IMG/VR virus record: IMGVR_UViG_3300030103_002748
Location: 1 to 61,896 of that record
DNA length: 61,896 nt
Source: a virus
Reading direction: 5' to 3' (one strand)
In this document: in pieces, positions 1,896-61,896 of the stretch
Layout: every line of letters begins with the position of its first letter
Numbering within the stretch: position 1 is the stretch's first letter
Program-made: the position numbers and the translations under genes
Notes under the pieces: model-generated
What the model was told of the DNA's origin: nothing
Database searches by the model: none
Seen by the model: the letters and a program-made list of their open reading frames with translations, nothing else

Positions 1896-2132
1896 CTATG
1901 TTTCTGATGACTTTCCCTCAGTATCCTCCTCGACGATCTCGTCAATACTTTCGCATACATCGGGTACAGCTATGCCTGTAGTTACTTCAGTAGCCACACG
2001 GCCCACAGCACGGATGCCTTTATAGACACCAGAGCAGTACAAGTCTTTGTTAGCAATCATGTCCTCAGAGATGGTGCATCCAGACATTATGGATAAACTA
2101 ATCAGCACTGGGAAAATCAATTTCATCTTCAA
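1896..2132 (-). CDS. Small lipoprotein of lysis cassette, copy A
   Basis: 78 residues with a type II signal peptide: charged MKMK, a hydrophobic core and lipobox SIMSGC, so Cys19 would be lipidated. The mature part is about 60 residues and contains [14 protein letters not shown] and VPDVC, giving two further cysteines that could form a disulfide. The paralogue at 18781-18996 conserves both of them. By position it could be an outer-membrane spanin-like partner, but it lacks the proline-rich stretch of classical o-spanins. Its start lies inside the 3' end of the lipase gene (35-base overlap), so translation is probably coupled. Confidence 0.75.
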   Translation of the reverse strand: MKMKLIFPVLISLSIMSGCTISEDMIANKDLYCSGVYKGIRAVGRVATEVTTGIAVPDVCESIDEIVEEDTEGKSSET

Positions 2133-2868
2133 TCCTTTTTAACTCTCTCATTTCGCCTTTGGTTAAAGGAACAACCTTCTTAGCTTCTTGCTCCTGCTCT
2201 TCGAGAAACTCCTTCAGTCTTTCTTTGTATCCTTCCATCATGTGATCGGTTATTCGATCTCTTAGACCGCCTCTGTCAGCAGCCCTTACGTCTTTGCTTG
2301 GGTCTATATAGTCAGGACCGTTATTGCTGAAGTACAACATAGTCTGTGAGCTTGACGGTCCGTAGCACAAACGCGGTATTCTGGCGACCATATCACTTCC
2401 CTGAACACAGGATATCTGGTTGTCCAGCGTCATTGGCTTTTTAAATCCTTTGAAGAACACATTAGGCTTGCCAAAGGTAACCAGATTAATGTTGTCGTGC
2501 TTGCCGTTCAACATAGATGCAGACAGTTCTGCCAATGCTCCCCCAAGACTATGACCGCAAATTAACGTGCGCTTTTTCGGGTCTATATGTTCTTTTATCT
2601 TCTTCCATACAGACTTGTGAGCAAGGGCAAAACCACCGTGGCATAACCTTCCCGCATAGGGTACTGGTATGACGTTTAAGTCCGTCAGAATGTCCAGCTT
2701 CTGCTTTGTTCCTCTGAAGGCAATAACATCTACGGACTTACGCTTTACTACAAATGCTGTAGTTGATGTCCATTTGCTATTTATTTTTATAGCATCTTTG
2801 TTATTTACAGCATACGCCTTCATAGACCACGAACAGGCCATATTGAGAAGGACAGGATCAAGTTTCAT
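2098..2868 (-). CDS. Class 3 lipase-like alpha/beta hydrolase, copy A
   Basis: 256 residues with the lipase class 3 signature GHSLGGALAE (Ser107). The rest of a Ser-Asp-His triad can be placed at Asp159 (GSDMVARIP) and His209 (TDHMMEGY). AFRGT near residue 50 is the usual oxyanion-side strand. The expected reaction is ester hydrolysis of lipids. There is no signal peptide. It sits in the lysis cassette, so membrane or outer-membrane lipid attack during lysis is plausible, but a role in the virion or in host lipid use is also possible. A second copy (32921-33625) conserves all three residues. The C-terminal 35 residues are a charged extension absent from copy B. Confidence 0.88.
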   Translation of the reverse strand: MKLDPVLLNMACSWSMKAYAVNNKDAIKINSKWTSTTAFVVKRKSVDVIAFRGTKQKLDILTDLNVIPVPYAGRLCHGGFALAHKSVWKKIKEHIDPKKRTLICGHSLGGALAELSASMLNGKHDNINLVTFGKPNVFFKGFKKPMTLDNQISCVQGSDMVARIPRLCYGPSSSQTMLYFSNNGPDYIDPSKDVRAADRGGLRDRITDHMMEGYKERLKEFLEEQEQEAKKVVPLTKGEMRELKRIEDEIDFPSAD

Positions 2869-3092
2869 TTATCAGCCTTGTTTTCTAGTCGCTTGAAAAT
2901 CGCACCCAGCATCTCTTTGATCTCGCGGATGTCTTCACGGTAATCGTCTTTGGCAACATACTTCTCAGCGATCTGCTTCATTTCTAAATCTACACGATCC
3001 AGCAAAGTGTAGATGCGGTTGTACGCCCACGCTGCCAGAAAGCCGCCGATCAGGATAATTACATCAAAGACTATTTGACCAGTAAGCTCCAT
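2865..3092 (-). CDS. Small membrane protein with coiled coil (XhlA/i-spanin-like topology)
   Basis: 75 residues: one N-terminal transmembrane segment (IVFDVIILIGGFLAAWAYN, about 7-25) and then a highly charged helical region (about 30-75) ending in EIKEMLGAIFKRLENKADK. This is the shape of phage hemolysin XhlA-like proteins and of inner-membrane spanins. It overlaps the lipase start by 4 bases and the 86-residue gene by 1 base, so it belongs to the same transcript. Given the lipoprotein nearby, a spanin-type pair is a reasonable hypothesis but is not shown. Confidence 0.65.
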   Translation of the reverse strand: MELTGQIVFDVIILIGGFLAAWAYNRIYTLLDRVDLEMKQIAEKYVAKDDYREDIREIKEMLGAIFKRLENKADK

Positions 3093-3352
3093 TACTCAGA
3101 CTCTTCTCTTGGGTCTACCCAATCTTCTACTGCCGTGAACGTGCCGTCAGACGCACATGTATATTTACACCCGTACCAATCTTCAGGCTCAGTAACTCCC
3201 TCGATAAGAGTGGCGTTGCCGCTGTTGAGATCACCAATGATAAACTCAGCAGGATCGCCAACAGTAATTGTGTCGCTTCCCATCGTGACTGACTTGTCAT
3301 CAGCAAAGAGATACCGTGATGTGTTCGTTGCATTGTCTACAATAGTCTTCAT
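3092..3352 (-). CDS. 86-residue array-associated protein, copy 1
   Basis: Function unknown. Mostly beta-rich, with SVTMGSDTITVGDPAEF in the middle and a C-terminal part with two cysteines (YGCKYTCASDG). It differs at only four residues from the protein at 58577-58837 (about 95% identical), and both lie directly downstream of a DUF2190-like/propeller gene. It is therefore part of a duplicated module. Likely a small structural or fibre-associated protein, since everything it travels with looks like virion surface material. Confidence 0.7.
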   Translation of the reverse strand: MKTIVDNATNTSRYLFADDKSVTMGSDTITVGDPAEFIIGDLNSGNATLIEGVTEPEDWYGCKYTCASDGTFTAVEDWVDPREESE

Positions 3353-3355
3353 GTC

Positions 3356-4810
3356 TTAACCTTTAAGTAAAAGTGTTGTTGCAGCCAAAGCCTTACCAGC
3401 GGTCACACTGGTAGAACCTGTTCCGAGACTGCCATCTGTTTGAACGTAATATGTAGTTCCGGGTGTTAAAGTCAAACCCAGACTTGCGTTAGTAATCACC
3501 CCGCCCTCGACCACCACTTCGCCTGATGCAGAGTTGTTGATAGCTTGGTTGGTGATGCCTACGAAGTCGGCGAAGTTGGTTGATCCGACCTGAAGAACCA
3601 CTGAAGTCCCGTAATTGCTATTACCACCGTCTTCAAAGCCAATTACTACTTTGTCTGAATTGGTGTCATAAGCAGCAGTGCATCTTTCTGACGTTGCTGC
3701 GGCAAACACAACAGGCGTTTCGTAAGTAATCGACGTACCACTCACAGTGCCAACGGCATAGGTTCCGTAATTGCTGTTGCCTTTATCCATATACACCACA
3801 ACCGCTTTCCCTGCGTCTGGGTCAAACGTCATTCCAACTTCTTGTATGCCGCCACTCTCAAATTCCACTTCAGAGCCATAGGATATAGACGTACCGCTGA
3901 CCGTCCCAACGAGTGACTTACCTTTTTCTGAATCAGCAGTATCTTCATACGCAATAACCACTTTGTTATTAGTGGTGTCAAATGCACACACTGAATTGGC
4001 AGTGCCAGCGGCATGAAATACAACAGCAGTTCCAAATGAAATAGAAGTGCCACTCACAGTGCCAACTATAGCTGTACCGTGACTTGAATTTCCTACATCA
4101 GTATATACCACTACTGTTTTATTGCTTGATGTGTCAAAGCAAGACGATTGTTGATATAAACTTGATTGAGCAGACTCAAAAACAACTGGAGACCCGTATG
4201 AAATAGAAGTGCCACTTACAGTGCCTACTGCGGCTGTACCATAGTTGCTATTGGATGTGTCTTTGTAAAACGTAACTACTTTATTTGAATTGCTGTCAAA
4301 TGTCGTGCTGGTATCTGATGCAACATTTGTGGTGATGGTCGCCTCAGAACCGAAACTAATACTGGTTCCGCTTACAGTGCCAACTATTGAGTTAGTTTTA
4401 TTGCTGTCTCCGACATCTTTATAAACAATGACTATTTTATTTGCATTGCTATCGTAAGTACCAGAGATTTGATACGTTGTGGCAGCATTAAATGTCACAG
4501 CCGTACCAAAGCTAATGCTTGTACCGCTCACAGTGCCTACGATAGCTTTACCGTGATTTGAATCTCCAGAATCAGTATAGACAATGACTACCTTGTTATT
4601 TGAGGAGTCATAAATAGGCAGAATGTGATAAGACTGTGCGGTTTCAAAAACTACTTCTGAACCTGTGCTTTCTGCTTGTCCAGAAATTTCAGACACCGTA
4701 CCGTTGGCATTCAGAACTACAGCCTGTCCTGTAGCCAGATTACCACTAGCCGTGGCCGTTATAACTTTTGCGCCAGCACCCGCTGGAAGTAGATCGCTTA
4801 GATTGCTCAT
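3356..4810 (-). CDS. DUF2190-like scaffold protein with one inserted seven-repeat propeller (array 1, position 2)
   Basis: 484 residues. Residues 1-43 and about 415-484 match the two halves of the ~120-residue scaffold seen alone at 6282-6647. Between them lie seven repeats of about 52 residues, each starting F/Y-D-x-x-x-x-K-V-V and containing VGTVSGTSISFG. Seven four-stranded units, with strands supplied from both ends of the block (EVVFE before it, SVVLQV at its end), fit a seven-bladed beta-propeller closed by a velcro strand arrangement. Expected to be a virion surface adhesin or decoration protein. No signal peptide. Confidence 0.75.
   Translation of the reverse strand: MSNLSDLLPAGAGAKVITATASGNLATGQAVVLNANGTVSEISGQAESTGSEVVFETAQSYHILPIYDSSNNKVVIVYTDSGDSNHGKAIVGTVSGTSISFGTAVTFNAATTYQISGTYDSNANKIVIVYKDVGDSNKTNSIVGTVSGTSISFGSEATITTNVASDTSTTFDSNSNKVVTFYKDTSNSNYGTAAVGTVSGTSISYGSPVVFESAQSSLYQQSSCFDTSSNKTVVVYTDVGNSSHGTAIVGTVSGTSISFGTAVVFHAAGTANSVCAFDTTNNKVVIAYEDTADSEKGKSLVGTVSGTSISYGSEVEFESGGIQEVGMTFDPDAGKAVVVYMDKGNSNYGTYAVGTVSGTSITYETPVVFAAATSERCTAAYDTNSDKVVIGFEDGGNSNYGTSVVLQVGSTNFADFVGITNQAINNSASGEVVVEGGVITNASLGLTLTPGTTYYVQTDGSLGTGSTSVTAGKALAATTLLLKG
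3560..4640 (-). repeat. Seven ~156-bp coding repeats (propeller 1)
   Basis: Each unit encodes about 52 residues with GTVSGTSISFG in the centre. Units differ by substitutions but keep the core string, so recombination between units or genes is possible. Confidence 0.85.
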
Positions 4811-6285
4811 GTGCTGTAATCCAAATTAATGCTTGTGGCTGACATTGCTTTGCCAGCTTCTACGCTAGGGCTTGCCGCGGATGTCGCTAATGTCCCGTCC
4901 CTTTGAACATAATAGGTTGATCCCGGAGTCAAACTGCTCAGACCGTTGGAGGCAATCCCGCCTTTCATCGTTACGTTTCCGCTTGCTGCGTTAGATATAG
5001 CTTCGTCCGCTATACCTAGGAAGTTAGTGGCAGTGAGGTTTGTACTATCGTAGGCAACTTGGAATACAACCGCTGTTCCATAGTAGGAGTTATCAACATC
5101 TCGGTAGGTAATAACCACTTTATTCAAATTAGAATCAAATGTTGACCCAATAAATTGAACGTGAGCAGACTCATACACAACTTCTGACCCAAACGAAATA
5201 CTGGTTCCTGATACAGTACCAACAATAAGAGTTCCATAAAGAGAGTTACCAGCATCTCTGTACGAAAAAACAACTTTATCTGCGGTGGAGTCAAATGTAG
5301 ATGAGATATAATTTGCACCAGCAGCTTGAATCTGCACAGAGCTACCGAACGATATAGAGGTTCCACTCACTGTTCCTACAACTGCGTATGAATAGCCATT
5401 CGCTGACTGATTATAACCAATAGCAACTTTGTTATTACTGGAATCAAATGTTGCTGTTATGTAAGTAGTAAGCGCATTAGTATCAAATGTTCCTGCTGAG
5501 CCGTAAGATATGCTCGTACCACTAACAGTGCCTACGATTGCTTTACCTTGGTTATCGCCAGAGTCTTTATAAGCAATAACAACTTTATTTGAGTTTGAAT
5601 CAAATGTTGCAGCCTGATCTGAAGTGTTTTCACTGTTGTATGCGGCTTTAGTCCCGAACGATATGCTTGTCCCGCTTACCGTCCCTACTATGGCAGTGCC
5701 ATAACCACCAGACGCACCGGACGCATCTCTAAAAACAACAACTACCTTATTGTTAGATGAATCAAATACGGTTGATATGTAGTCAGCACTTGACGCCCTA
5801 AACACCACTTCACTACCAAACGAGATTGATGTTCCACTAACTGTGCCTACTATTGCCGTGCCGTGAGATGAGTTCCCTCCATCTGTATAAGCAATCACAA
5901 CTTTGTTATTAGATGAGTCGAATGTCGCAGATGTATACGATGTAGAACCAGAATTAAAAACAACAGGCGTACCAAATGTTATTGAATTATCACTTGCTGG
6001 CGTTCCTACTACTGCGGTTCCGTAGCTTGAGTTGCTATTATCACAATACGCTATAACAACTTTGTTGTTAGACGAGTCAAATGTTGGTGAACTATATGGA
6101 GCACTTCCAGACTCAAATACTGTTGGTGAACCAATACCTTGATCGGCAGATTCTCCTGCCACCTGTGTAACCGTACCATTAGCGTTCAAGATGACAGGTT
6201 TACCCTGTGCAATTGTTCCACTCGCAGTAAATTCAAGCTGCTTACTCGCCGCACCTGCTGGTAAAAGATCGCTTAGATTTGTCAT
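4807..6285 (-). CDS. DUF2190-like scaffold protein with one inserted seven-repeat propeller (array 1, position 3)
   Basis: 492 residues, with the same design as its neighbour: scaffold N-part (MTNLSDLLPAGAASKQL), seven ~52-residue repeats beginning FDSSNNKVVIAY, then scaffold C-part ending SINLDYST. The scaffold halves are closest to the propeller-free protein at 61429-61791, which occupies the matching position in the second array. The two genes therefore differ mainly by presence or absence of the propeller block. Start overlaps the stop of the upstream gene (ATGA). Likely displayed on the virion surface; the ligand is unknown. Confidence 0.75.
   Translation of the reverse strand: MTNLSDLLPAGAASKQLEFTASGTIAQGKPVILNANGTVTQVAGESADQGIGSPTVFESGSAPYSSPTFDSSNNKVVIAYCDNSNSSYGTAVVGTPASDNSITFGTPVVFNSGSTSYTSATFDSSNNKVVIAYTDGGNSSHGTAIVGTVSGTSISFGSEVVFRASSADYISTVFDSSNNKVVVVFRDASGASGGYGTAIVGTVSGTSISFGTKAAYNSENTSDQAATFDSNSNKVVIAYKDSGDNQGKAIVGTVSGTSISYGSAGTFDTNALTTYITATFDSSNNKVAIGYNQSANGYSYAVVGTVSGTSISFGSSVQIQAAGANYISSTFDSTADKVVFSYRDAGNSLYGTLIVGTVSGTSISFGSEVVYESAHVQFIGSTFDSNLNKVVITYRDVDNSYYGTAVVFQVAYDSTNLTATNFLGIADEAISNAASGNVTMKGGIASNGLSSLTPGSTYYVQRDGTLATSAASPSVEAGKAMSATSINLDYST
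5040..6120 (-). repeat. Seven ~156-bp coding repeats (propeller 2)
   Basis: Same unit as propeller 1; starts FDSSNNKVVIAY in several units. Confidence 0.85.
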
Positions 6286-6647
6286 GCGAAATCCATCATG
6301 TTGATTGTTGTGGCAGTGACAGCCTGTCCTATCTTCACCGCTGGGCTTGTGCTGGTAGTAGAGACACTGCCATCGCTTTGGGCGTAGTAGTCAGAGCCAA
6401 TAGTCAACGAGGACTGCTTGCTGTTGATGCTGCCCTTGACGTTGATCTTGCCTGTTGCAGTATCTGATATAGCCGCATCTGCTAAACCTATAAACCTAGC
6501 TAAATTACCGTTGGCAGAAGTTATTTTTTTAACCTTGCCGTTAGTTTCTAAACTGACAGGATCACCAGCAGAAATCGCTCCATCTGCCGTGAAACTAACA
6601 ATGTTCTGCCCACCACCGCTGGGCAGCAGATCAGAAAGATTACTCAT
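6282..6647 (-). CDS. Propeller-free DUF2190-like scaffold protein (array 1, position 4)
   Basis: 121 residues. The pattern is that of DUF2190/capsid-cement-like proteins: FTADGAISAGDPVSLETNGKV, then FIGLADAAISDTATGKINVKG, then DYYAQSDGSV and a final strand ending INMMDFA. It gives the minimal scaffold into which the propellers of the neighbouring genes are inserted, at about residues 43-48 and 75-80. A closely similar copy is cut by the right edge of the window. Family assignment comes from sequence pattern only. Confidence 0.65.
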   Translation of the reverse strand: MSNLSDLLPSGGGQNIVSFTADGAISAGDPVSLETNGKVKKITSANGNLARFIGLADAAISDTATGKINVKGSINSKQSSLTIGSDYYAQSDGSVSTTSTSPAVKIGQAVTATTINMMDFA

Positions 6648-7781
6648 TTACACGCTCCAGCCTATAGTGCCGTTGATGTACACCAACGTAATCTCAGCGA
6701 AGTTCTTGTCGAACGTAAGATCACTTGCGCTTGACGCTATGTTGCTTGAGTTGCGACCTACGGTAAAACTTGTAGTTTCTGCTGCACCCGTACCGTCTTT
6801 AATAGTGACGTAATCACCTGCACTGGGACTAGCGGGTAGCGTAATAGTAATCGACCCCGCACTCGCTACAATAAATTCACCGACAGTAGCAGTATAGTTA
6901 CCGCTTTTCAGTTGTGGCGCAGAATACTCAGTAACTGTAGCGAAAGCTAGTTTGCCGGAACCATTAGATGCTTTTACAAACTGACCTGTACTACCTACAG
7001 CATCAGGTAGTTCTAAAGAATAGGTCGCTCCTGCGGAGTGTGGTGGGCCTTTTAGCGTTACACCGTGACTGTTGCTTTCACAGTTGAAGCGAATAGCACC
7101 TGCGTTGGTGTTACCGTAAAGCTCGGTAAAACCTGTGCCGTTTGGAAAGAGCTGTATGTTGCCATTAGTATTTGTAGATTTGACCGCATTTGCGTCTATC
7201 TGAATATTATCTACATCAAGCTCATTAGCGACTATCTGACCTGCGGAGCCATATATAACAGCCTTTGAATTAACTACGGTATCAGCAGCCGATCCATCTA
7301 CTAGGTTTAGTTCTGATGCACTAGATGTGACATCTGTAAGCTGAGTAACAGCGACTTGAGGACTCGCTAGAACCACCGCTGCGCCAGAACCTGCCCCGTC
7401 TAAATACAATAAGGCTGTTTTACCGTTGGCTATAGTGACGTTTGCACCAGAGCCCTGACTAACATTTATTGATTGACTGCCCGAAGTGGCATTTTCAATA
7501 AACATCACGCGAGAAACGGTGTTGGGCGCTATTGTTAACGTCCTGGTTGCCGTTAAGCTAACACCCGAGGTTACTTTAAAATAAAGTGCCCTGGCCGGAT
7601 CGGCAGCGCCATCCGCGACTGTCGTCGTGACATCGGCATCTGAACTAAAAGACGCCTCTGTTTTAAAGCCAAGGGCCTCACCTATAAGCTCTAAATTGGT
7701 ATTTGTGCTGGTTCCCCAGGTTCCGCTTTCGTCACCTGTGGCGATTTCTTTTAATCGTAAGTTGTTTACATAAGTTGCCAT
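6648..7781 (-). CDS. Tail fibre-like structural protein
   Basis: 377 residues. The N-terminus YVNNLRLKEIATGDESGTWG is typical of marine phage fibre or baseplate-attached proteins. The middle carries SSASELNLVDGS, a motif common in phage fibre shafts, and the C-terminal part is beta-rich (SITITLPASPSAGDYVTIKD). Low in cysteine and rich in Ser, Thr, Gly and Asn. Located just upstream of the propeller array, so it may form the attachment base of the receptor-binding apparatus. Virion location is inferred. Confidence 0.65.
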   Translation of the reverse strand: MATYVNNLRLKEIATGDESGTWGTSTNTNLELIGEALGFKTEASFSSDADVTTTVADGAADPARALYFKVTSGVSLTATRTLTIAPNTVSRVMFIENATSGSQSINVSQGSGANVTIANGKTALLYLDGAGSGAAVVLASPQVAVTQLTDVTSSASELNLVDGSAADTVVNSKAVIYGSAGQIVANELDVDNIQIDANAVKSTNTNGNIQLFPNGTGFTELYGNTNAGAIRFNCESNSHGVTLKGPPHSAGATYSLELPDAVGSTGQFVKASNGSGKLAFATVTEYSAPQLKSGNYTATVGEFIVASAGSITITLPASPSAGDYVTIKDGTGAAETTSFTVGRNSSNIASSASDLTFDKNFAEITLVYINGTIGWSV

Positions 7782-7793
7782 TGGTACACCTCA

Positions 7794-8699
7794 TTAAGCG
7801 GCTATTTCTACCCAACCTGGGGTTTGTGACGGAGTTTCCTCTGTCCAATTTGGATTTTGATCTGGACCTATTTCACCCCAAACTATGACTCTTCCAACTT
7901 GCCCAGTAGCAAACAACCCCGTAACAGGAGAGGTTGCGTCGGCTTCAATTGTAACTGCTCCTACGCTACCGGTGGCTTGAAGACCTGTTACAGGTACGTC
8001 AAGTTGTAAATCAATCGTTACCGACCCAACCGAGCCGGTTACTGTTAAGCCCGTAACAGCGGTTGACGCTCCTGCGTTAACACTAACACTGCCCACGCTG
8101 CCCGCAGCAGATATGCCCGTGACTGGCGTTAAAACACCGGCATCAACTGTTACACTACCCACAAAGCCGGTTGCGGACAACCCAAGAGAGGCTCCCCAAC
8201 CGCCTTCGCCCCAACTACCTCGGCCCCAACCGTCAAAACGAACGGTTTTATTAAATATGACCTGGGCTGTCGATCCTGTGGCACTAACACCAGTCACACT
8301 AACGTTAGATAAACCTGTGACCGTTACCGATCCAACACCACCAGTGGCACCTATACCAGTCGGGAATACGCCAGTTCCCTCTAAAGTGCCTGCACTGCCA
8401 ACGCCACCAGTAGCGGACAATCCTGTGACTGACAGATTGTTGTTGGAAACCGTTGAAAGTGTTCCAACGCCGCCCGTAGCGGCTATGCCGGTTACTGCAA
8501 CATCTCCCGCAGCTACAGCAGTTACGCTACCAACGCCACCAGTGGCCGATAAGCCGGTTTCCGGGACATTGGCCTCTGCGATAACTGTTACACTACCAAC
8601 AGCACCTGTGGCTAAGGGTAGAGTTTGAGCAGAGCCATATCCGCCTGATCCCCAAGCAACATAACCCCAACCAGCTATAGGGACGGTAACGTCGGCCAT
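7794..8699 (-). CDS. Repeat-rich structural protein (ATGxVGSVTV repeats)
   Basis: 301 residues. About eleven ~23-residue units with the core TG(L/I)xATGxVGSVTV run through the whole chain. They are interrupted near residue 165 by a Trp/Gly-rich segment (GWGRGSWGEGGWG) that echoes the N-terminal GWGYVAWGSGGYG. Such regular short beta repeats suggest a fibrous or beta-solenoid virion component. Single units of the same repeat form the C-termini of the otherwise unrelated small proteins at 10072-10377 and 53123-53425. Confidence 0.65.
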   Translation of the reverse strand: MADVTVPIAGWGYVAWGSGGYGSAQTLPLATGAVGSVTVIAEANVPETGLSATGGVGSVTAVAAGDVAVTGIAATGGVGTLSTVSNNNLSVTGLSATGGVGSAGTLEGTGVFPTGIGATGGVGSVTVTGLSNVSVTGVSATGSTAQVIFNKTVRFDGWGRGSWGEGGWGASLGLSATGFVGSVTVDAGVLTPVTGISAAGSVGSVSVNAGASTAVTGLTVTGSVGSVTIDLQLDVPVTGLQATGSVGAVTIEADATSPVTGLFATGQVGRVIVWGEIGPDQNPNWTEETPSQTPGWVEIAA

Positions 8700-10075: not shown

Positions 10076-10377
10076 GAAATTGTCACCGTGACACTACCAA
10101 CTTGCCCATTAGCTAATAAGGGTTTAAAACTAGGTCCCTCTACTTGAGGCACCCCAACGGAAATGTCTAAAGGCTCTACTCGGTCCGGCCTGGGATTACG
10201 CAAAGCCTGCGGGTCTGTAATGCTTTTTGGAGACTCTAACTGAGGCTGTTTCTCTTCCCATTCGTCTTTGCCCACCAAGAGGCCATTCCACTCTCGTTTC
10301 ATCTCGTTTAACTTGTAACGAAACCCGCTTCTGTCTGATATGCCATAGGCATGTTTACCAACAGCGAACTTACCCAT
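10072..10377 (-). CDS. Small protein ending in a VGSVTV repeat unit
   Basis: 101 residues, unknown. The first 70 residues are basic and polar (FRYKLNEMKREWNGLLVGKDEW). The last 15 residues (LLANGQVGSVTVTIS) are one copy of the repeat that builds the 301-residue protein at 7794-8699. The protein at 53123-53425 ends almost identically. It lies between the two adaptor-like genes with 1-4 base overlaps, so a role at the head-tail joint is likely. Confidence 0.55.
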   Translation of the reverse strand: MGKFAVGKHAYGISDRSGFRYKLNEMKREWNGLLVGKDEWEEKQPQLESPKSITDPQALRNPRPDRVEPLDISVGVPQVEGPSFKPLLANGQVGSVTVTIS

Positions 10378-13116: not shown

Positions 13117-13599
13117 TTAGGATGCGTCAGAAGAGCTAGATATGCCAAAAAACTTCAGAACAATCACTGTGTCGCCGCCGGGATCACCCGAAACAACAAG
13201 CTCCACTTCGTCTGCCGTTTCTGTGGCCGCTGTAGTTGCGCCACCCGACATTCCAAGAACGCCGTTACACGGGAAAAAACCTTTGAATCCGACTGAATTT
13301 ACAGCGGCGGAAATGCCATCGACAAAGCCATCTGTGTTTGCATCGGTGCCTATATCATTGAGAGTTACAGCGTTTGCAGCGGCTGTGGTAACAGCGACCG
13401 TAACAGCCATAGGTATAAAGTTTGACGGAATACCAATAGCCGCCTCTTTACCAGTGGTGGCACCGTCTGCCACAGTAATGGTCGTCTCGTAAGTCTTGAG
13501 CGTCATTGTGCTAGTAACAGCACCGGTGGTGGCATTTTTGGTTATATCTTGAAAACCGTTCTCTGAACGGACGGGACCACTAAAAGTAGTATTAGCCAT
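13117..13599 (-). CDS. Structural protein next to capsid (decoration-like)
   Basis: 160 residues, starting MANTTFSGPVRSENGF, a beginning seen in many marine phage structural proteins. The rest is beta-rich with ETTITVADGATTGKEAAIG and ELVVSGDPGGDTVIVLKFFG. It is the first gene downstream of the terminator that follows the major capsid gene, so it may be expressed at a lower level than capsid. Function as a minor capsid or decoration protein is inferred. Confidence 0.6.
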   Translation of the reverse strand: MANTTFSGPVRSENGFQDITKNATTGAVTSTMTLKTYETTITVADGATTGKEAAIGIPSNFIPMAVTVAVTTAAANAVTLNDIGTDANTDGFVDGISAAVNSVGFKGFFPCNGVLGMSGGATTAATETADEVELVVSGDPGGDTVIVLKFFGISSSSDAS

Positions 13600-55856: not shown

Positions 55857-57733
55857 TGTAACTCCACTAAATCGTTGTATCCATCTGTTCCGGTTATACG
55901 CAGCAATCCTCTTGGGTCTACCGTAGGAGCATTGTCTGGGTACATCTGCGTACTTTCATAAAACTCCCTATCGGTTAAATTCACGTTTTGGTATTGATTA
56001 AACGCCGGATTGTTTGAAATCAAAAACACCGCTAGGCTCTGGTCAGTAAAACCTCCAGTGTCTCCAATATCTTCCAACTCATTTTCTAAGCTCTGTTCAA
56101 GGTCCTGTTGACTCATCGTCTGTATTTGGGCCTCGGCGCGTTGGACGGTGCGTTGCTCTTGTTGACTTGGGGGAGCTACGTCAAACCGACTAAAATCCGG
56201 TAGTTGTGCGGACAGAAATTGTCCTATGGACTGCCCTGTGGCTATTGCATCGTTGAAATCCTGCTCAAACTGCATTTGACTCGGAGGAGCTAAGTCTTCT
56301 TGCGTAAGTCCGTTAGACTCCTGTTGATCGGCCTGAGTAGTTACTGTTTGCGTTATTTGCTGTTGCATACCTGCTACAGCTTGATCCGGGCCTGTATTCT
56401 CAAATATGTTCATATTCTGTGGTTGAGAGCCAAATGACTGCGATTGTCCCGACAAACTTAAAGCGATACCCACGACATCTACTGCGGGCTTCACTGCTGC
56501 GCTAACTCTTTCAGCAGCGGGCTCTGCTCTGGTCTCAGCGGCTACCTCAACCGAGGCAGCTTTGGTTTGCGCTTCCACAGCTTGCACCTCTCGAACCACT
56601 GGCTCTGCTCTAATAACCACTCGCTCTGGGGCGGGCTCTGGTCTTGGCTCGCGTGTAACCTGGACTACTTCTGCAACGGCTTCTACAACTTCAACCGCTC
56701 TAGCCTCTCGGACTTCTTCGACCTGTGTTGGTTCACCGGTAATCTCTGGTGCTTGTTGCTGCTGTTGTTGGTCTTGTCTAACTGGCTCTCCCGTGGGTGC
56801 CCTACCCATCACCTGGGGGCCACCAAACATCTGCTGCTGTGGTGCATCTTGGTAGACCTGTGGTTGCGATAACTGTGTCAGAACCCGTGGTCTGCCCATA
56901 GCGTCAGGCTGATCAAGATGCATAAAATCATCCGCCGAATCACCAAAAACTGTATCTGTAGCTTGTTCTGCATAGCTGGGTGGAGCGGACGCTGCCTCTC
57001 CACCTCCGCCTTGTTGCTGGTTTAAGGTGCTTGCAGACATTATTAAACTAGCTACGCCGTTGTTTAATCCAAAAGTTGTACTGCCGCCATAGTTCTGAAC
57101 ATCATTGGTGGTGAAACCATTCATTTCCCATTCTTGTGTCCAAGAGCCACCGTATCCATCACCATTTGGAAAATTAGGGCCACCATACCAACCAACAAAT
57201 GCCTTGTGGTGAAAGCTCACATTGACATCTTGGTACTCAAATTTAAACCCACCTGTACGATCTAGCGTTAATCCGAAGGTATTTTCGTTTGTGGTGGCAT
57301 ATTCTCTAACCTTGTTCCATAAAAAGCTGGTTGAGTCGGCGTTAGTCTTATAAAAATACCCTGCGTTAGCGTCATTACTAGTATCATCAAGATCAGTCCA
57401 CAATGGCGCAAGCATGTAAGAAAAGCTTCCCAAACCATAATCTCGCGGCATATAAGTCGGCATTCCAGTGGCGTGAGTGTAGCCATCACAGCAATACCCA
57501 TACAACGGAGCAGTCTGTTTACCAACTCCGGTGGTTGGGTTATACATCAACACAAAACCATTGGTACTCATCCAGGCATGAGTAAAAATCTGATCCAACC
57601 ACGGAAACGTATGACCCATTTCTACTGAAACGGCCTTATCATCTACTCCGCTCATGACCTGGGTCATGCCCGTAGGGTTGAGATCCGCAAAAGAGAGTGA
57701 GGGTAAAAGGCAGAGTAAAGTAAAACGCTTCAC
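55844..57733 (-). CDS. Exported NIDO-like protein with low-complexity tail
   Basis: 629 residues from a GTG at 57733, chosen because AGGAGG (57739-57744) lies 5 bases upstream and the resulting start MKRFTLLCLLPSLSFA is a signal peptide. Residues about 20-240 resemble a nidogen-type beta domain (STNGFVLMYNP, LAPLWTDLDDTSNDANAGYF, TFGLTLDRTGGFKFEYQDVN). A Gln/Glu/Val/Ala-rich region follows, then a small C-terminal domain. Function unknown. An exported phage protein may act at the cell surface. Confidence 0.6.
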   Translation of the reverse strand: MKRFTLLCLLPSLSFADLNPTGMTQVMSGVDDKAVSVEMGHTFPWLDQIFTHAWMSTNGFVLMYNPTTGVGKQTAPLYGYCCDGYTHATGMPTYMPRDYGLGSFSYMLAPLWTDLDDTSNDANAGYFYKTNADSTSFLWNKVREYATTNENTFGLTLDRTGGFKFEYQDVNVSFHHKAFVGWYGGPNFPNGDGYGGSWTQEWEMNGFTTNDVQNYGGSTTFGLNNGVASLIMSASTLNQQQGGGGEAASAPPSYAEQATDTVFGDSADDFMHLDQPDAMGRPRVLTQLSQPQVYQDAPQQQMFGGPQVMGRAPTGEPVRQDQQQQQQAPEITGEPTQVEEVREARAVEVVEAVAEVVQVTREPRPEPAPERVVIRAEPVVREVQAVEAQTKAASVEVAAETRAEPAAERVSAAVKPAVDVVGIALSLSGQSQSFGSQPQNMNIFENTGPDQAVAGMQQQITQTVTTQADQQESNGLTQEDLAPPSQMQFEQDFNDAIATGQSIGQFLSAQLPDFSRFDVAPPSQQEQRTVQRAEAQIQTMSQQDLEQSLENELEDIGDTGGFTDQSLAVFLISNNPAFNQYQNVNLTDREFYESTQMYPDNAPTVDPRGLLRITGTDGYNDLVELQWQR

Positions 57734-58560
57734 CTCAACCTCCTGTCTGGCTCCGGTATCTTGTCTGGGTTTGCGTCCCACAACACCTTTGCCTCATCGC
57801 CTATCTTGCCCTCGTAAGGACATGGTGTTCCTGCACTCATCATGCTTGACCAAACACGGTAGTCTTGGCACATGAGACTTACCGCTGCGACGCGCATACC
57901 CATGTCGTACAGGGTCTTTCCCAATTTTATACGTTCGCAGTTTTGATCACGGACAGAACGCCCAGTGGATAAACCTAGTATCTGTGTTTGCACCGCACCA
58001 GATATGCCCGTAGTGCAAAGGTCTTGGCTATAACTACTACCAATACTGGGTGCGATAGCACTAGGTGGCGGTGACTCTAGCTTTTGGGTAACACGCTGTG
58101 TTGAGTCGCTAATGCTCTGACTATTGCTAACATTGTTGTTAGTGTTCATTGCGGTAATGTCACTAACACTGTTGCTTGTCGTAAAGCTCGTGCTGTTAGA
58201 CGTAGTATTACTGGTGTTGGTATTTACGTTGGTAGCACTGCTCGTAGATACCGTGTTGTTAATATTGGTGTTGGTGTTATTGCTTGTGCTGGTATTTATA
58301 TTTTCAATAAGACCGTCATAGTTCATCGAGTTGACGTTAGTGTTCAAGCTCGTTGAATCTGTAGTGGTGTTGATAGTGCTGTTATTCGTATTGGTGTTAG
58401 TTGACGCACCCGTATAAGTTGTATTGTTCGTATTATTGTTATTATTGGTATTGTTAGACGAACTTGTACTTGTGGCAGTCGTAGTTATCTCAGTCTGCGT
58501 TTGTGCAAACAAAGGAATAGCAAAAAAACTACATATCGCTAAAACCAATAGACGTTTCAT
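57730..58560 (-). CDS. Exported Asn/Thr/Ser-rich protein with Cys domain
   Basis: 276 residues. Signal peptide MKRLLVLAICSFFAIPLFAQ; residues 22-150 are almost only Asn, Thr, Ser with few others. A C-terminal domain has paired cysteines (QDLCTTGISG, DQNCERIKLG, SLMCQDYRVW, GTPCPYEG), suggesting disulfides outside the cytoplasm. It overlaps the NIDO-like gene through GTGA. Unknown function; likely secreted or periplasmic. Confidence 0.65.
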   Translation of the reverse strand: MKRLLVLAICSFFAIPLFAQTQTEITTTATSTSSSNNTNNNNNTNNTTYTGASTNTNTNNSTINTTTDSTSLNTNVNSMNYDGLIENINTSTSNNTNTNINNTVSTSSATNVNTNTSNTTSNSTSFTTSNSVSDITAMNTNNNVSNSQSISDSTQRVTQKLESPPPSAIAPSIGSSYSQDLCTTGISGAVQTQILGLSTGRSVRDQNCERIKLGKTLYDMGMRVAAVSLMCQDYRVWSSMMSAGTPCPYEGKIGDEAKVLWDANPDKIPEPDRRLR

Positions 58561-58576
58561 TACTCATACCTAAAAT

Positions 58577-58837
58577 CTATTCAGACTCTTCTCTTGGGTC
58601 TACCCAACCCTCTACTGCCGTGAACGTGCCGTCACTCGCACAGGTGTACTTGCACCCGTACCAGTCGGTTGGCTCGCTAACTCCAGTGATAAGAGTGGCG
58701 TTGCCGCTGTTGAGGTCACCAATGATAAACTCAGCAGGATCGCCCACAGTAATTGTGTCGCTTCCCATCGTGACTGACTTGTCATCAGCAAAGAGGTATC
58801 TGGATGTGTTCGTTGCATTGTCTACGATTGTCTTCAT
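58577..58837 (-). CDS. 86-residue array-associated protein, copy 2
   Basis: Identical to copy 1 (3092-3352) except for four residues (ITGVSEPTD versus IEGVTEPED, and VEG versus VED). It follows the two-propeller gene, just as copy 1 follows a one-propeller gene. Structural or fibre-associated role inferred from context. Confidence 0.7.
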   Translation of the reverse strand: MKTIVDNATNTSRYLFADDKSVTMGSDTITVGDPAEFIIGDLNSGNATLITGVSEPTDWYGCKYTCASDGTFTAVEGWVDPREESE

Positions 58838-58840
58838 GTC

Positions 58841-61432
58841 TTACCCTTTCAGTAGAAGTGTCGTGTTTGCTATTGCCTTGCCAGCCGTTACGCTGGAAGA
58901 CGTTGTGGAAAGTGTGCCATCGTCTTGGACGTAGTAGGTGCTGCCGATTGTGAAGTTAGGCACACCGCTGGATAACGTGCCTACGATGCCTGTGCCATAG
59001 TTTGAATTACCATTATCTTTGAACGCTATGACAATTTTATTGTTGTCAGTATCTTTAGTTATAGCAATCTCTCCGCCACTGGTAGAGGTAGAGTTAAAGA
59101 CAGCAGCATCACCAAACGTAATGGTGTCGCCATCAACCGTCCCTATCTTGGTTTTTCCTTTATTTGAATCATCGGTGTCGCTGTAACCTATGATAATTTT
59201 ATTTGTAGTGGAGTCATAAAACGCTGGTGTACCGTGAAAACCCACATTGGTGCTATTCCAAGTTACCTCTGTTCCAACGCTTATTGATGTGCCGCTGACT
59301 GTACCTATGATTGCTTTCCCAATGTTGGAGTTATCCGCATCGCTAAAAAATATTACCGATTTGTTTGCATTAGCGTCATAAGCCACAGCAGTTCTAAAGG
59401 CATTTGCTGCAACTCCCGTGGTGAATGATCCAACACTCATGCTTGTGCCTGATATTGTTACAACACAAGCGTCCCCACGATTACTGTTGGAATTATTTGC
59501 AAAGAACACAACGTGCTTTTGAGCGGTAGAATCGTAGGCGATTGCTATATATATTGCCGTATCGCTAGAAAGTGCAGATGCTCCACCAAAGCTGATACTT
59601 GTTCCTGACACTGTACCCACATTAGCAGTAAGTACATCAGAATTACCTCCATCGCTGTAAACAAACAAGGTCTTTGATGCGTTAGTATCGTATGATGCCT
59701 CAAGATACGCAGATGAAGCAGACTCTAACACTACCTCTGTACCGAAAGAGATACTTGTTCCTGACACAGTTCCCACTCTGGCCGTGCCGTATGAACTGTT
59801 CCCTACATCTCTGTATCCAATGACTACTTTCCCCGCAGAAGCATCAAAAACTGCGGTCACATAGTCTGTGCTGGCACTATTAAATTCTACAGGACTACCA
59901 TAACTAATCGACGTACCAGACACAGTGCCTACGATAGCTTTCCCTTTGTTTGAGTCACCGTAATCTGCGTACGCTATTACAATCTTGTCGTTTGCTGTGT
60001 CGTAAACAATTGCCGGATATCTCGAATTACCCGTATTATAAACCGCCTCACTTCCGTAACTCGCTGTCGTTATTGGTGACAACAACGACCCGTTAGTAAT
60101 CACCCCGCCCTCGACAACCACTTCGCCTGATGCAGAGTTGTTGATAGCTTGGTTGGTTATGCCTACGAAGTCAGAAGAGTTTGTGGATGCGCCAGCTAAC
60201 TGAAGCACATATGCTTTGCCTCGATTATTTGTAGAATCACTTAGAGCAATAACTGTTCTTCCTGCATTGGTGTCAAAAGCAGAACCGCCAAAATTATTGT
60301 TGTAGTTCGTAATTGCTACAGGAGTTGCATAGGATATGCTGTTACCCGCAGTAGGTGTCCCTACCACATAATAGCCATAGTCACTATTATTTTGATCTCG
60401 ATATTGAATTACAACTTTGTTTGCTACGGAGTCAAAAACTATTGAGTGAACGTCTACAATATTACTAGAAAATACGACACCAGTACCAAAAGATATGCTG
60501 GTTCCAGACACTTCACCTACAACTGCTACACCCCGTCTACTATTGTCGTAATCCTGATAAGCGACAACTATTTTGTTAAGATTGCTGTCAAATGTTGCTA
60601 CAATGTCTTCAGCGGTATCGCTTGCAGGAGAGAAAGCCTCACCTGACCCAAAGCTGATGCTTGAGCCGGACACTGTTCCGACTTTTGCCCGCCCTCTTGT
60701 GTTGTTATCATTATAAACTACGACAAATTTATCGTTCGTAGTATCGTAAAAAACAGCCATTGGGTCTGAAACAGAATTACTTTCAAAAACCTCTTCTGGA
60801 TTGGTTCTAGTGACCGAAGTGCCACTAACCGTTAGAAGTCTTGCTGCGCCTCTGTTGCTGTTCCCGCCATCTGCATAAATTATCATATGCTTGGCAGCAT
60901 CAGGACTGTAGGCAACATTAACGTACAATGATTGATTGCCCTCGACCTCTAAGGCAGAGCCGAAAGAAATACTGGTTCCTGACACAGTACCAACGATTGC
61001 TTTTGCTGGGCCGTTACCCTCATCATAAGACTGATAAGCGATTAATACCTTGTCCTCACCTGTATCATAGGAAGCGTCTACATGATTAGTGCCTGAACTC
61101 TGAAAAACCACCGCTGTGCCAAACGAGATTGAGTTACCTGATACCGTACCAACGCGAGCGGTTCCATAATTACTATTACCGTTATCCCTATATGCAACTA
61201 TTACTTTGTTGCTGTCAGGATCAAAAACAACCGCCGGGTACTCAGTTTGATTTGATGCTCCATATGTAACAGCACTGCCGATGTTTTCGGAATGTGCAAC
61301 CTCAGCGACCGCTTTAACAGTACCGTCACTCTGCAAGATCACGGTTTGTCCTGTAGCCAGATTACCACTGGCCGTGGCCGTTATGACTTTTGCGCCGCCA
61401 CCTGCTGGCAGTAAATCGCTTAGATTGCTCAT
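58841..61432 (-). CDS. DUF2190-like scaffold protein with two inserted seven-repeat propellers (array 2, position 2)
   Basis: 863 residues. Scaffold N-part (MSNLSDLLPAGGGAKVITAT), seven ~52-residue repeats, scaffold middle (FVGITNQAINNSASGEVVVE), a second set of seven repeats, then scaffold end (FTIGSTYYVQDDGTLSTTSS). Each set alone fits a seven-bladed propeller. The second block enters at about scaffold residue 75-80, a site not used in array 1. The scaffold ends are nearly those of the array 1 gene at 3356-4810. Confidence 0.75.
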   Translation of the reverse strand: MSNLSDLLPAGGGAKVITATASGNLATGQTVILQSDGTVKAVAEVAHSENIGSAVTYGASNQTEYPAVVFDPDSNKVIVAYRDNGNSNYGTARVGTVSGNSISFGTAVVFQSSGTNHVDASYDTGEDKVLIAYQSYDEGNGPAKAIVGTVSGTSISFGSALEVEGNQSLYVNVAYSPDAAKHMIIYADGGNSNRGAARLLTVSGTSVTRTNPEEVFESNSVSDPMAVFYDTTNDKFVVVYNDNNTRGRAKVGTVSGSSISFGSGEAFSPASDTAEDIVATFDSNLNKIVVAYQDYDNSRRGVAVVGEVSGTSISFGTGVVFSSNIVDVHSIVFDSVANKVVIQYRDQNNSDYGYYVVGTPTAGNSISYATPVAITNYNNNFGGSAFDTNAGRTVIALSDSTNNRGKAYVLQLAGASTNSSDFVGITNQAINNSASGEVVVEGGVITNGSLLSPITTASYGSEAVYNTGNSRYPAIVYDTANDKIVIAYADYGDSNKGKAIVGTVSGTSISYGSPVEFNSASTDYVTAVFDASAGKVVIGYRDVGNSSYGTARVGTVSGTSISFGTEVVLESASSAYLEASYDTNASKTLFVYSDGGNSDVLTANVGTVSGTSISFGGASALSSDTAIYIAIAYDSTAQKHVVFFANNSNSNRGDACVVTISGTSMSVGSFTTGVAANAFRTAVAYDANANKSVIFFSDADNSNIGKAIIGTVSGTSISVGTEVTWNSTNVGFHGTPAFYDSTTNKIIIGYSDTDDSNKGKTKIGTVDGDTITFGDAAVFNSTSTSGGEIAITKDTDNNKIVIAFKDNGNSNYGTGIVGTLSSGVPNFTIGSTYYVQDDGTLSTTSSSVTAGKAIANTTLLLKG
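58960..60060 (-). repeat. Seven ~156-bp coding repeats (propeller 4)
   Basis: Second block of the 863-residue protein, at the distinct downstream scaffold site. Confidence 0.85.
60190..61280 (-). repeat. Seven ~156-bp coding repeats (propeller 3)
   Basis: First block of the 863-residue protein, inserted after the scaffold N-part at the same site as propellers 1 and 2. Confidence 0.85.
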
Positions 61433-61791
61433 GTGCTGTAATCCAGATTGATGCTTGTGGCTGACATTGCTTTACCAGCGGTCACTGAAGAAGATGCGGT
61501 GCTAAGTGTGCCGTCATCTTGGACGTAGTAGGTCGCTCCTGGCGTTAGACTGCTCAGACCATTAGCTGCAATCCCGCCCTTCATAGTAACCTTGCCGCTT
61601 GCTGCGTTGGATATGGCTGCGTCTGCTATGCCTAAAAACCTACTGACGTTAGAGTTCGCTGAGGTTATTTTTTTAACTTTTCCATTGGTTTCTAAACTTA
61701 CCGTGTCGCCTTGCGCTATCGCCCCATCAGCAGTAAAACTTAGCTGCTTACTGGCCGCACCCGCTGGTAAAAGATCGCTTAGATTTGTCAT
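61429..61791 (-). CDS. Propeller-free DUF2190-like scaffold protein (array 2, position 3)
   Basis: 120 residues, MTNLSDLLPAGAASKQLSFT to SINLDYST. The ends match the propeller-bearing gene at 4807-6285; the middle (LETNGKVKKITSANSNVSRF) matches the propeller-free gene at 6282-6647. It looks like the position 3 gene without its propeller, or a hybrid of the two. Overlaps the next genes by ATGA. Confidence 0.65.
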   Translation of the reverse strand: MTNLSDLLPAGAASKQLSFTADGAIAQGDTVSLETNGKVKKITSANSNVSRFLGIADAAISNAASGKVTMKGGIAANGLSSLTPGATYYVQDDGTLSTASSSVTAGKAMSATSINLDYST

Positions 61792-61896
61792 GTCAAATCC
61801 ATCATGTTAATTGTTGTGGCAGTGACAGCCTGGCCTATCTTCACCGCTGGGCTTGTGCTGGTAGTAGAGACACTGCCATCGCTTTGGACGTAATAG
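61788..61896 (-). CDS. Partial propeller-scaffold gene, cut by window edge (array 2, position 4)
   Basis: Only the last 35 codons are present (YYVQSDGSVSTTSTSPAVKI to TTINMMDLT). They match the end of the protein at 6282-6647 almost exactly. The stop overlaps the next start by ATGA. Whether a propeller is inserted upstream cannot be seen. Confidence 0.75.
   Translation of the reverse strand, partial: YYVQSDGSVSTTSTSPAVKIGQAVTATTINMMDLT

Follow-up and report, generated by a model that had tools for sequence, protein, structure and literature searches.

Within the virus record IMGVR_UViG_3300030103_002748, whose 61,896 nucleotides we refer to as a whole as the window, three genes (genes A, B and C) carry blocks of a tandem repeat, and the locus raises the question of why these blocks should keep a particular number of units and what the encoded proteins would do for the phage. 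A preliminary description of this DNA had proposed that the repeats form closed beta-propellers displayed on a small scaffold. We put at about 0.68 the probability that the proteins are exchangeable seven-bladed, probably glycan-binding tail-fibre adhesins mounted on small scaffolds, and not capsid cement.

Direct counting on the translations gave seven units in gene A (47-54 residues each), seven in gene B and seven plus seven in gene C. A repeat hidden Markov model (HMM) found 28 of 28 units, at 47-85 bits apiece and contiguous inside each block, and the claim of four blocks of ~52-residue repeats with exactly seven units each is thereby confirmed. Units span 47-55 residues in the window genes, and the consensus of the seven-unit family is TPVVFESANTSYISATFDSNANKVVIAYRDGGNSNYGTAIVGTVSGTSISFG. 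Two insert-free scaffolds (6282-6647 and 61429-61791) align with the non-repeat remainder of genes A, B and C, which shows that the inserts sit inside a ~120-residue scaffold that also exists without an insert, as had been described. Loop 1 of this scaffold lies between NGTV and F(V/I/L)GI, and loop 2 comes after the strand following loop 1 and before YYVQ. Gene C encodes one scaffold in which each of the two insertion loops holds one seven-unit block.

We then considered whether the number seven is maintained in viral relatives, which were gathered as contigs by protein search and pattern search. Units were counted with an HMM fixed at 52 positions; earlier HMMs that had been iterated with loose gap columns lost blades. 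Of the 207 complete unique open reading frames (ORFs) in a first survey, 128 contained one seven-unit block and 28 contained 7+7; in 9, 14 units ran contiguously. For blocks of the full set that are uncut by a contig end, the count was exactly 7 in 261, 14 in nine, 9 in one and 13 in one; the full-set blocks scored at 1-6 units include many divergent ones, with insert lengths measured for part of them only. Such low scores were rejected as counter-examples, as the inserts measurable in the first survey, two exceptions aside (below), have 364-410 or more residues, compared with 379 +/- 12 in blocks scored as seven, and we attribute the undercounts to blades too divergent for the repeat HMM. The 13 and 9 units scored in L178 and L179 proved on reading to be divergent runs of roughly two propellers that permit no exact count. 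Genuine exceptions in the measured set are L033 (332 residues) and L065 (327 residues), with six units each by eye. Their DNA self-similarity (0.81 and 0.84, respectively) ranks fourth and second among all blocks, for which the median is 0.40, and this may reflect recent unit loss or collapse during short-read assembly.

Gene lengths give a view that does not depend on the HMM. The 183 complete scaffold genes are ~120, 460-525, 720-780 or 840-890 amino acids (aa) long, with few others, and these classes centre on about 120, 490, 745 and 855 aa. With counts in viral relatives that peak at 7 and 14 only and with discrete gene lengths, the sevens exceed what random expansion would give, as the preliminary description had argued, and apart from the two six-unit cases in the measured set the homologues show 7 or 14 units and not arbitrary numbers. 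Its phrase "four independent blocks" did not survive, since the blocks are members of one large family with a maintained number and not separate inventions. The repeat motif occurs almost exclusively in viruses: the whole genome collection has 17 stretches with it, and a much smaller viral collection has at least 120. Two of the genome-collection sequences, L196 and L204, from bins of a Euryarchaeota and a Maricaulis metagenome-assembled genome, have four motif copies each and may be phage contigs.

A second repeat family is also fixed in number. The ~745-aa proteins combine a seven-unit block with an insert of a different repeat, of consensus TASYSVSFSVSSQDTSPRGIAFNSDGTKMYIVGSTNDTVYQYSLSTAFDVS, in a third loop of the scaffold, close to the C-terminus (L021, L118, L132, L156, L165 and others). 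Five units were present in all complete cases of the first survey, and a separate viral scan yielded 210 uncut blocks with exactly 5 units in 176, 10 in two and 15 in one; four ORFs initially scored as having six were discarded as divergent proteins with weak terminal matches. The five-unit repeats match the Pfam propeller families SGL and Lactonase, and from their count and the phase of their blocks we infer that they form five-bladed propellers. The same family was seen in other viral fibre-like proteins, including a 5+5+5 arrangement (L152:3276-4487).

Structure prediction is consistent with closed rings. A single-sequence AlphaFold2 (AF2) model of gene A has a predicted local distance difference test score (pLDDT) of 59, mostly 60-88 in the blade region, and a predicted template modelling score (pTM) of 0.61. 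When this model was compared with the PDB using Foldseek, the eleven best matches were seven-bladed lectins of Photorhabdus, namely PLL2, PLL3, PHL and PLL4 (E 1.6e-8 to 9.8e-7, template modelling score (TM) for the target 0.71-0.76). The alignments extend over ~356-374 columns against lectins of 336-354 residues, with target-normalised TM of 0.70-0.76. The gene C model, which was built with 18 natural sequences aligned, reached a pLDDT of 82 with strands repeating regularly in both blocks, and strands recur regularly per unit in the models of both genes, consistent with four-stranded blades, seven to a block. Its pTM is 0.49, a value to be expected when two domains are joined by flexible links. 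The Foldseek search with this two-propeller model returned only generic double-propeller proteins and was set aside, because the relative placement of the domains is undefined. The prediction of a closed propeller is thus supported at the level of models, with gene A matching closed seven-bladed lectins end to end and gene C having regular strands. The nearest predicted viral structures are unnamed proteins of 44-46% identity and a protein of Lentibacter phage ICBM2. No credible relative emerged when gene A, a 7+5 relative and a scaffold profile were each searched against PDB sequences, and Pfam matches of the repeats to Agenet, DehI and Rhodanese fell below cut-off and were taken as chance.

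The ends of the blocks carry a further indication. Most seven-unit blocks open at position 1 of the repeat model, and their last unit mostly stops at 42-50 of 52, before the final strand, which the N-terminus could supply. Taking the two repeat families together, the opening unit mostly starts at position 1-3, and the closing unit mostly falls 2-10 positions short and lacks a complete last strand, as ring closure through the N-terminal strand would require. It is hardly credible, then, that the sevens are coincidental products of neutral tandem-repeat expansion or that the blocks are open solenoids. Gain and loss of units can occur, as the few blocks with high DNA self-similarity, both six-unit cases included, illustrate. 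However, such expansion would have to leave 7 or 14 units fixed despite a median identity of 41% between blades of one propeller, fix a second and unrelated family at five, and phase the block ends for closure. The propellers might instead be glycan-cleaving depolymerases and not binding modules, given that sialidases are among the Foldseek matches (1eut and 1eur, E ~1e-5) and that phage tailspikes are commonly depolymerases. We regard this as improbable, because enzymes rank well below lectins in Foldseek, and near-regular repeats with variability over all blades do not suggest a single conserved active site.

The scaffolds fall by their C-termini into three types: I (INMMD), II (SINLDY) and III (LLLKG). 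Among typed genes, neighbouring scaffolds follow the order I-II 41 times and II-III 16 times, and the reverse order 0 times. Scaffold genes are arranged as ordered triplets I-II-III, each with zero, one or two propellers. The combinations 7, 7+7 and 7+5 are found in all three types, and insert-free scaffolds are rare, with four seen, two of which lie in this window. Here, cassette 1 (3092-6647) reads I(empty)-II(7)-III(7) followed by an 86-aa gene, and cassette 2 (58577-61896) reads I(cut by the window end)-II(empty)-III(7+7) followed by an 86-aa gene. Two variants among relatives depart from this layout. In L026, a 621-aa type II protein has in loop 2 a short stretch that we read from its sequence as cupredoxin-like, and no propeller there; in L018, a 393-aa type I-like protein has no propeller and ends in a Gly_rich_2 domain (PF21722). 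Glycine-rich C-terminal domains are known from some fibre adhesins.

Comparison of relatives shows that the propellers move as wholes. Orthologous scaffolds of the same type with an identity of at least 0.9 hold propellers whose identity ranges from 0.33 to 1.0, and scaffolds that are 85-91% identical often hold propellers of 29-45% identity. For pairs with scaffold identity of at least 0.85, fourfold-degenerate sites often agree at 70-86% in the scaffold parts to either side of the insert but at only about 40% in the propeller; for the scaffolds of 85-91% identity the values are about 75-86% and, within the propellers, about 0.2-0.45. Fast amino-acid evolution alone would leave synonymous sites unchanged; because these have diverged too, the propellers were replaced by recombination, and whole propellers were exchanged between conserved scaffolds. 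Within the blade, the crossover that leads into strand A (3.16 bits) and the B-C loop (2.59 bits) vary most, and the C-D turn (0.94 bits) varies least. In standard propeller geometry, the strand-A crossover and the B-C loop lie on one face. Such a concentration in two loops could also come from a diversity-generating retroelement or from blade-by-blade shuffling, with no exchange of whole propellers. This seems very improbable, for the following reasons. No match to the reverse transcriptase family PF00078 was found in the window, although the record may be incomplete. A search for recent exchange of single blades found a blade shared at 88% identity or more in only 3 of 37,369 pairs of dissimilar propellers, each time at the equal position. 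Furthermore, synonymous sites differ as well, unlike the outcome of targeted adenine mutagenesis of a few codons.

Where the proteins are located in the virion is suggested by their genomic setting. The phage is a marine relative of the ocean SAR11 viruses. Its large terminase subunit (TerL) has 64% identity to that of Pelagibacter phage HTVC027P, and for its major capsid protein the identity to those of HTVC027P and DSL-LC04 is 69-72%. Collinearity with HTVC027P gp64-gp69 extends over the window genes at 10377, 10072, 9425, 8704, 7794 and 6648, and the capsid genes are likewise collinear with their counterparts in that phage. Directly after gp69, HTVC027P encodes gp70, a tail-collar protein, and in the window cassette 1 occupies that slot. 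A homologue of the gene at 6648-7781 stands just upstream of 49 of the 54 cassettes that start with type I, and an 86-aa gene follows many cassettes in relatives. The 86-aa protein has 37.8% identity (E 4e-7) to the first 80 residues of ICBM2 gp48, which is annotated as a tail assembly chaperone and carries PF16778; a Pfam search found no such domain in the 86-aa protein itself. ICBM2 (vB_LenP_ICBM2, MF431616) resembles the window in that a seven-type-like protein (gp49) is followed by this chaperone-like gene, and a five-unit protein (gp51) is encoded nearby in the same variable region, to which genes for tail fibres, connectors or assembly proteins have been assigned (PMC6775973). Unlike the window cassettes, ICBM2 has a tail-fibre-like N-terminus, very divergent blades and no scaffold triplet. 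Finally, in L180-L186, tail-fibre-like proteins of roughly 1,300-1,900 aa contain the same scaffold with divergent seven-type blocks, some twice in tandem, and the scaffold with its propeller stands at the end of these very long proteins. The cassette slot, the upstream fibre-like gene, the chaperone-like 86-aa gene, the ICBM2 tail-fibre region and the fibre-like proteins of L180-L186 together underlie our reading of a tail adhesin; judged from gene order, the slot is that of a tail-tip adhesin and not that of a capsid cement gene.

The scaffold would instead be a true head cement protein if its family match were taken at face value, in which case the propellers would stud the head and give weak adhesion to cells or particles without specific recognition. 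The preliminary description had called the scaffold DUF2190-like, and a weak match to PF09956 (Phage_cement_2) does exist, whereas membership in the family is not established: the scaffolds at 6282-6647 and 61429-61791 score 23.3 and 21.4 bits (E 8.8e-5 and 3.4e-4) and thus fall just under the curated cut-off of 24. The match covers nearly the whole insert-free scaffold, was obtained for two of the four insert-free scaffolds and is the sole Pfam match of the scaffold, and there is a weak PHROG match to "head decoration" (phrog_19421, E 5.6e-4). In DSL-LC04, however, the gene annotated as cement follows the major capsid gene, and the corresponding place in the window is held by a different gene (13117-13599). 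The cassettes lie in the fibre region beside the chaperone-like gene and bear large loop insertions, unlike PF09956 cement proteins, and the same scaffold terminates very long tail-fibre-like proteins. We therefore consider capsid decoration unlikely.

Some observations do weigh against the proteins being lectin-like tail adhesins with exchanged propellers. The best family match of the scaffold is named for a phage cement protein, which would point to the capsid; the scaffold parts of the AF2 models of genes A and C have low confidence; no PDB sequence match to gene A, including to the lectins, was found up to E 10; and the propeller identities may be somewhat lowered by the alignment of diverged repeats.

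Table 1. Scaffold genes, propeller blocks and adjoining genes of the two cassettes in the window.
Feature	Position	Strand	Basis
86-aa gene, end of cassette 1	3092..3352	-	similar to N-terminal part of ICBM2 chaperone protein
Gene A, type III scaffold gene (C-terminus TTLLLKG), 484 aa, single 7-unit block in loop 1	3356..4810	-	
Gene A propeller block, predicted 7-bladed, residues 49-411	3578..4666	-	repeat HMM, AF2 and Foldseek
Gene B, type II scaffold gene (C-terminus SINLDYST), 492 aa, single 7-unit block in loop 1	4807..6285	-	
Gene B propeller block, predicted 7-bladed, residues 52-417	5035..6132	-	repeat HMM
Type I insert-free scaffold, 121 aa	6282..6647	-	sub-threshold PF09956; aligns with other insert-free scaffolds
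Tail-fibre-like gene directly before cassette 1, homologue of HTVC027P gp69 "putative tail protein"	6648..7781	-	
86-aa gene, end of cassette 2, near-copy of 3092-3352	58577..58837	-	84% DNA identity over 362 bases
Gene C, type III scaffold gene, 863 aa, 7-unit blocks in loops 1 and 2	58841..61432	-	
Gene C propeller block 2, predicted 7-bladed, residues 459-827	58952..60058	-	repeat HMM, gene C model
Gene C propeller block 1, predicted 7-bladed, residues 51-419	60176..61282	-	repeat HMM, gene C model
Type II insert-free scaffold, 120 aa	61429..61791	-	sub-threshold PF09956
Type I scaffold gene of cassette 2, C-terminal end only (window end cuts gene)	61788..61895	-	translation ends TTINMMDLT*

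The features of both cassettes are collected in Table 1. The final 116 bases of the window (61781-61896) are 95% identical to 6275-6390 and represent a near-copy of the type I scaffold gene; the window stops inside this near-copy, which probably marks a contig break at the duplication. Because different sequence follows their 86-aa genes, we treat cassettes 1 and 2 as two loci, with some doubt about the assembly given the near-identity at the contig end. Elsewhere in the window, a class 3 lipase (PF01764, E 1.9e-18; 2098-2868, minus strand) is encoded among late genes near the endolysin, the protein of 7794-8699 (minus strand) has short repeats like VTGLSATGGVGSVT at a position conserved with HTVC027P gp68, and right after cassette 2 a protein (57730-58560, minus strand) contains a long low-complexity stretch rich in asparagine, threonine and serine.

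Propellers as such are already known in phage adhesins, in phi11 Gp45, PRD1 P2 and phiKZ gp131C (PMC4901313). Gp45 of Staphylococcus phage phi11 is closed by an N-terminal strand and has a proposed GlcNAc site, yet it is a five-bladed homotrimer with a helical stem and has neither insertion into a scaffold loop nor a triplet of paralogues (PMC4901313); we found no sequence relation between Gp45 and the window propellers. In Pseudomonas phage phiKZ, the tail-structure protein gp131C also has a propeller of seven blades, for which a receptor role has been proposed (cited in PMC4901313), but there the propeller is the C-terminal domain of a baseplate protein and not a loop insertion in a small scaffold. 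The Photorhabdus PLL/PHL structures matched best by the gene A model (6rgg, 6t96, 5mxg and 8q82) are of bacterial lectins of 9-12% identity that lack a phage scaffold. Highly repetitive beta-propellers, which are built by blade amplification, likewise peak at preferred numbers, but they form a continuum of intermediate numbers (PMC9218822), whereas the present family has next to no intermediates and mostly diverged blades. In the open-access literature we found no account in which propellers are inserted into the loops of a small scaffold, in which such genes form ordered triplets, or in which one scaffold carries two propeller families that each keep a different number of units, and searches on propellers together with phage decoration proteins or DUF2190 returned nothing relevant. 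What is new here is the ordered triplets, the five-unit family in the third loop, the exchange of whole propellers and the slot in the tail-fibre region.

Taken together, these results suggest a model in which each repeat block would be a closed, lectin-like seven-bladed beta-propeller that occupies, as an intact unit, a loop of a small beta-rich scaffold, with seven units retained because incomplete rings would not fold. The paralogues I, II and III would assemble on the tail fibre or tail tip, where the scaffold may serve as a socket that holds the propellers outwards. Two findings lend indirect backing to the term "display": propellers are exchanged while their scaffold stays conserved, and the genes lie in the tail-fibre region. 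The variable strand-A crossover and B-C loops may bind molecules of the host surface, most likely glycans, and swapping a whole propeller in a conserved scaffold would alter host range, as would a second propeller, be it seven-bladed in loop 2 or of the unrelated five-unit type in loop 3. More tentatively, and at somewhat less than an even chance, types I, II and III together may build one hetero-oligomeric tail tip, a multi-site socket for closed plug-in propellers of two unrelated families, seven- and five-bladed, such that exchange of units between phages would give combinatorial and multivalent host recognition in abundant marine phages.

Phages of SAR11 are very abundant and, to our knowledge, hardly anything has been learned about how their relatives recognise hosts. 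If the model is correct, these cassettes would constitute a natural display system in which the whole beta-propeller is the unit of exchange, with the socket conserved, the blade number fixed and the binding faces variable. Their sequence would also serve as a signature by which adhesins could be recognised in viral metagenomes, in which these proteins stay unannotated, and they would offer a large natural data set on the exact retention of blade number, in which two unrelated families on one scaffold keep seven and five.

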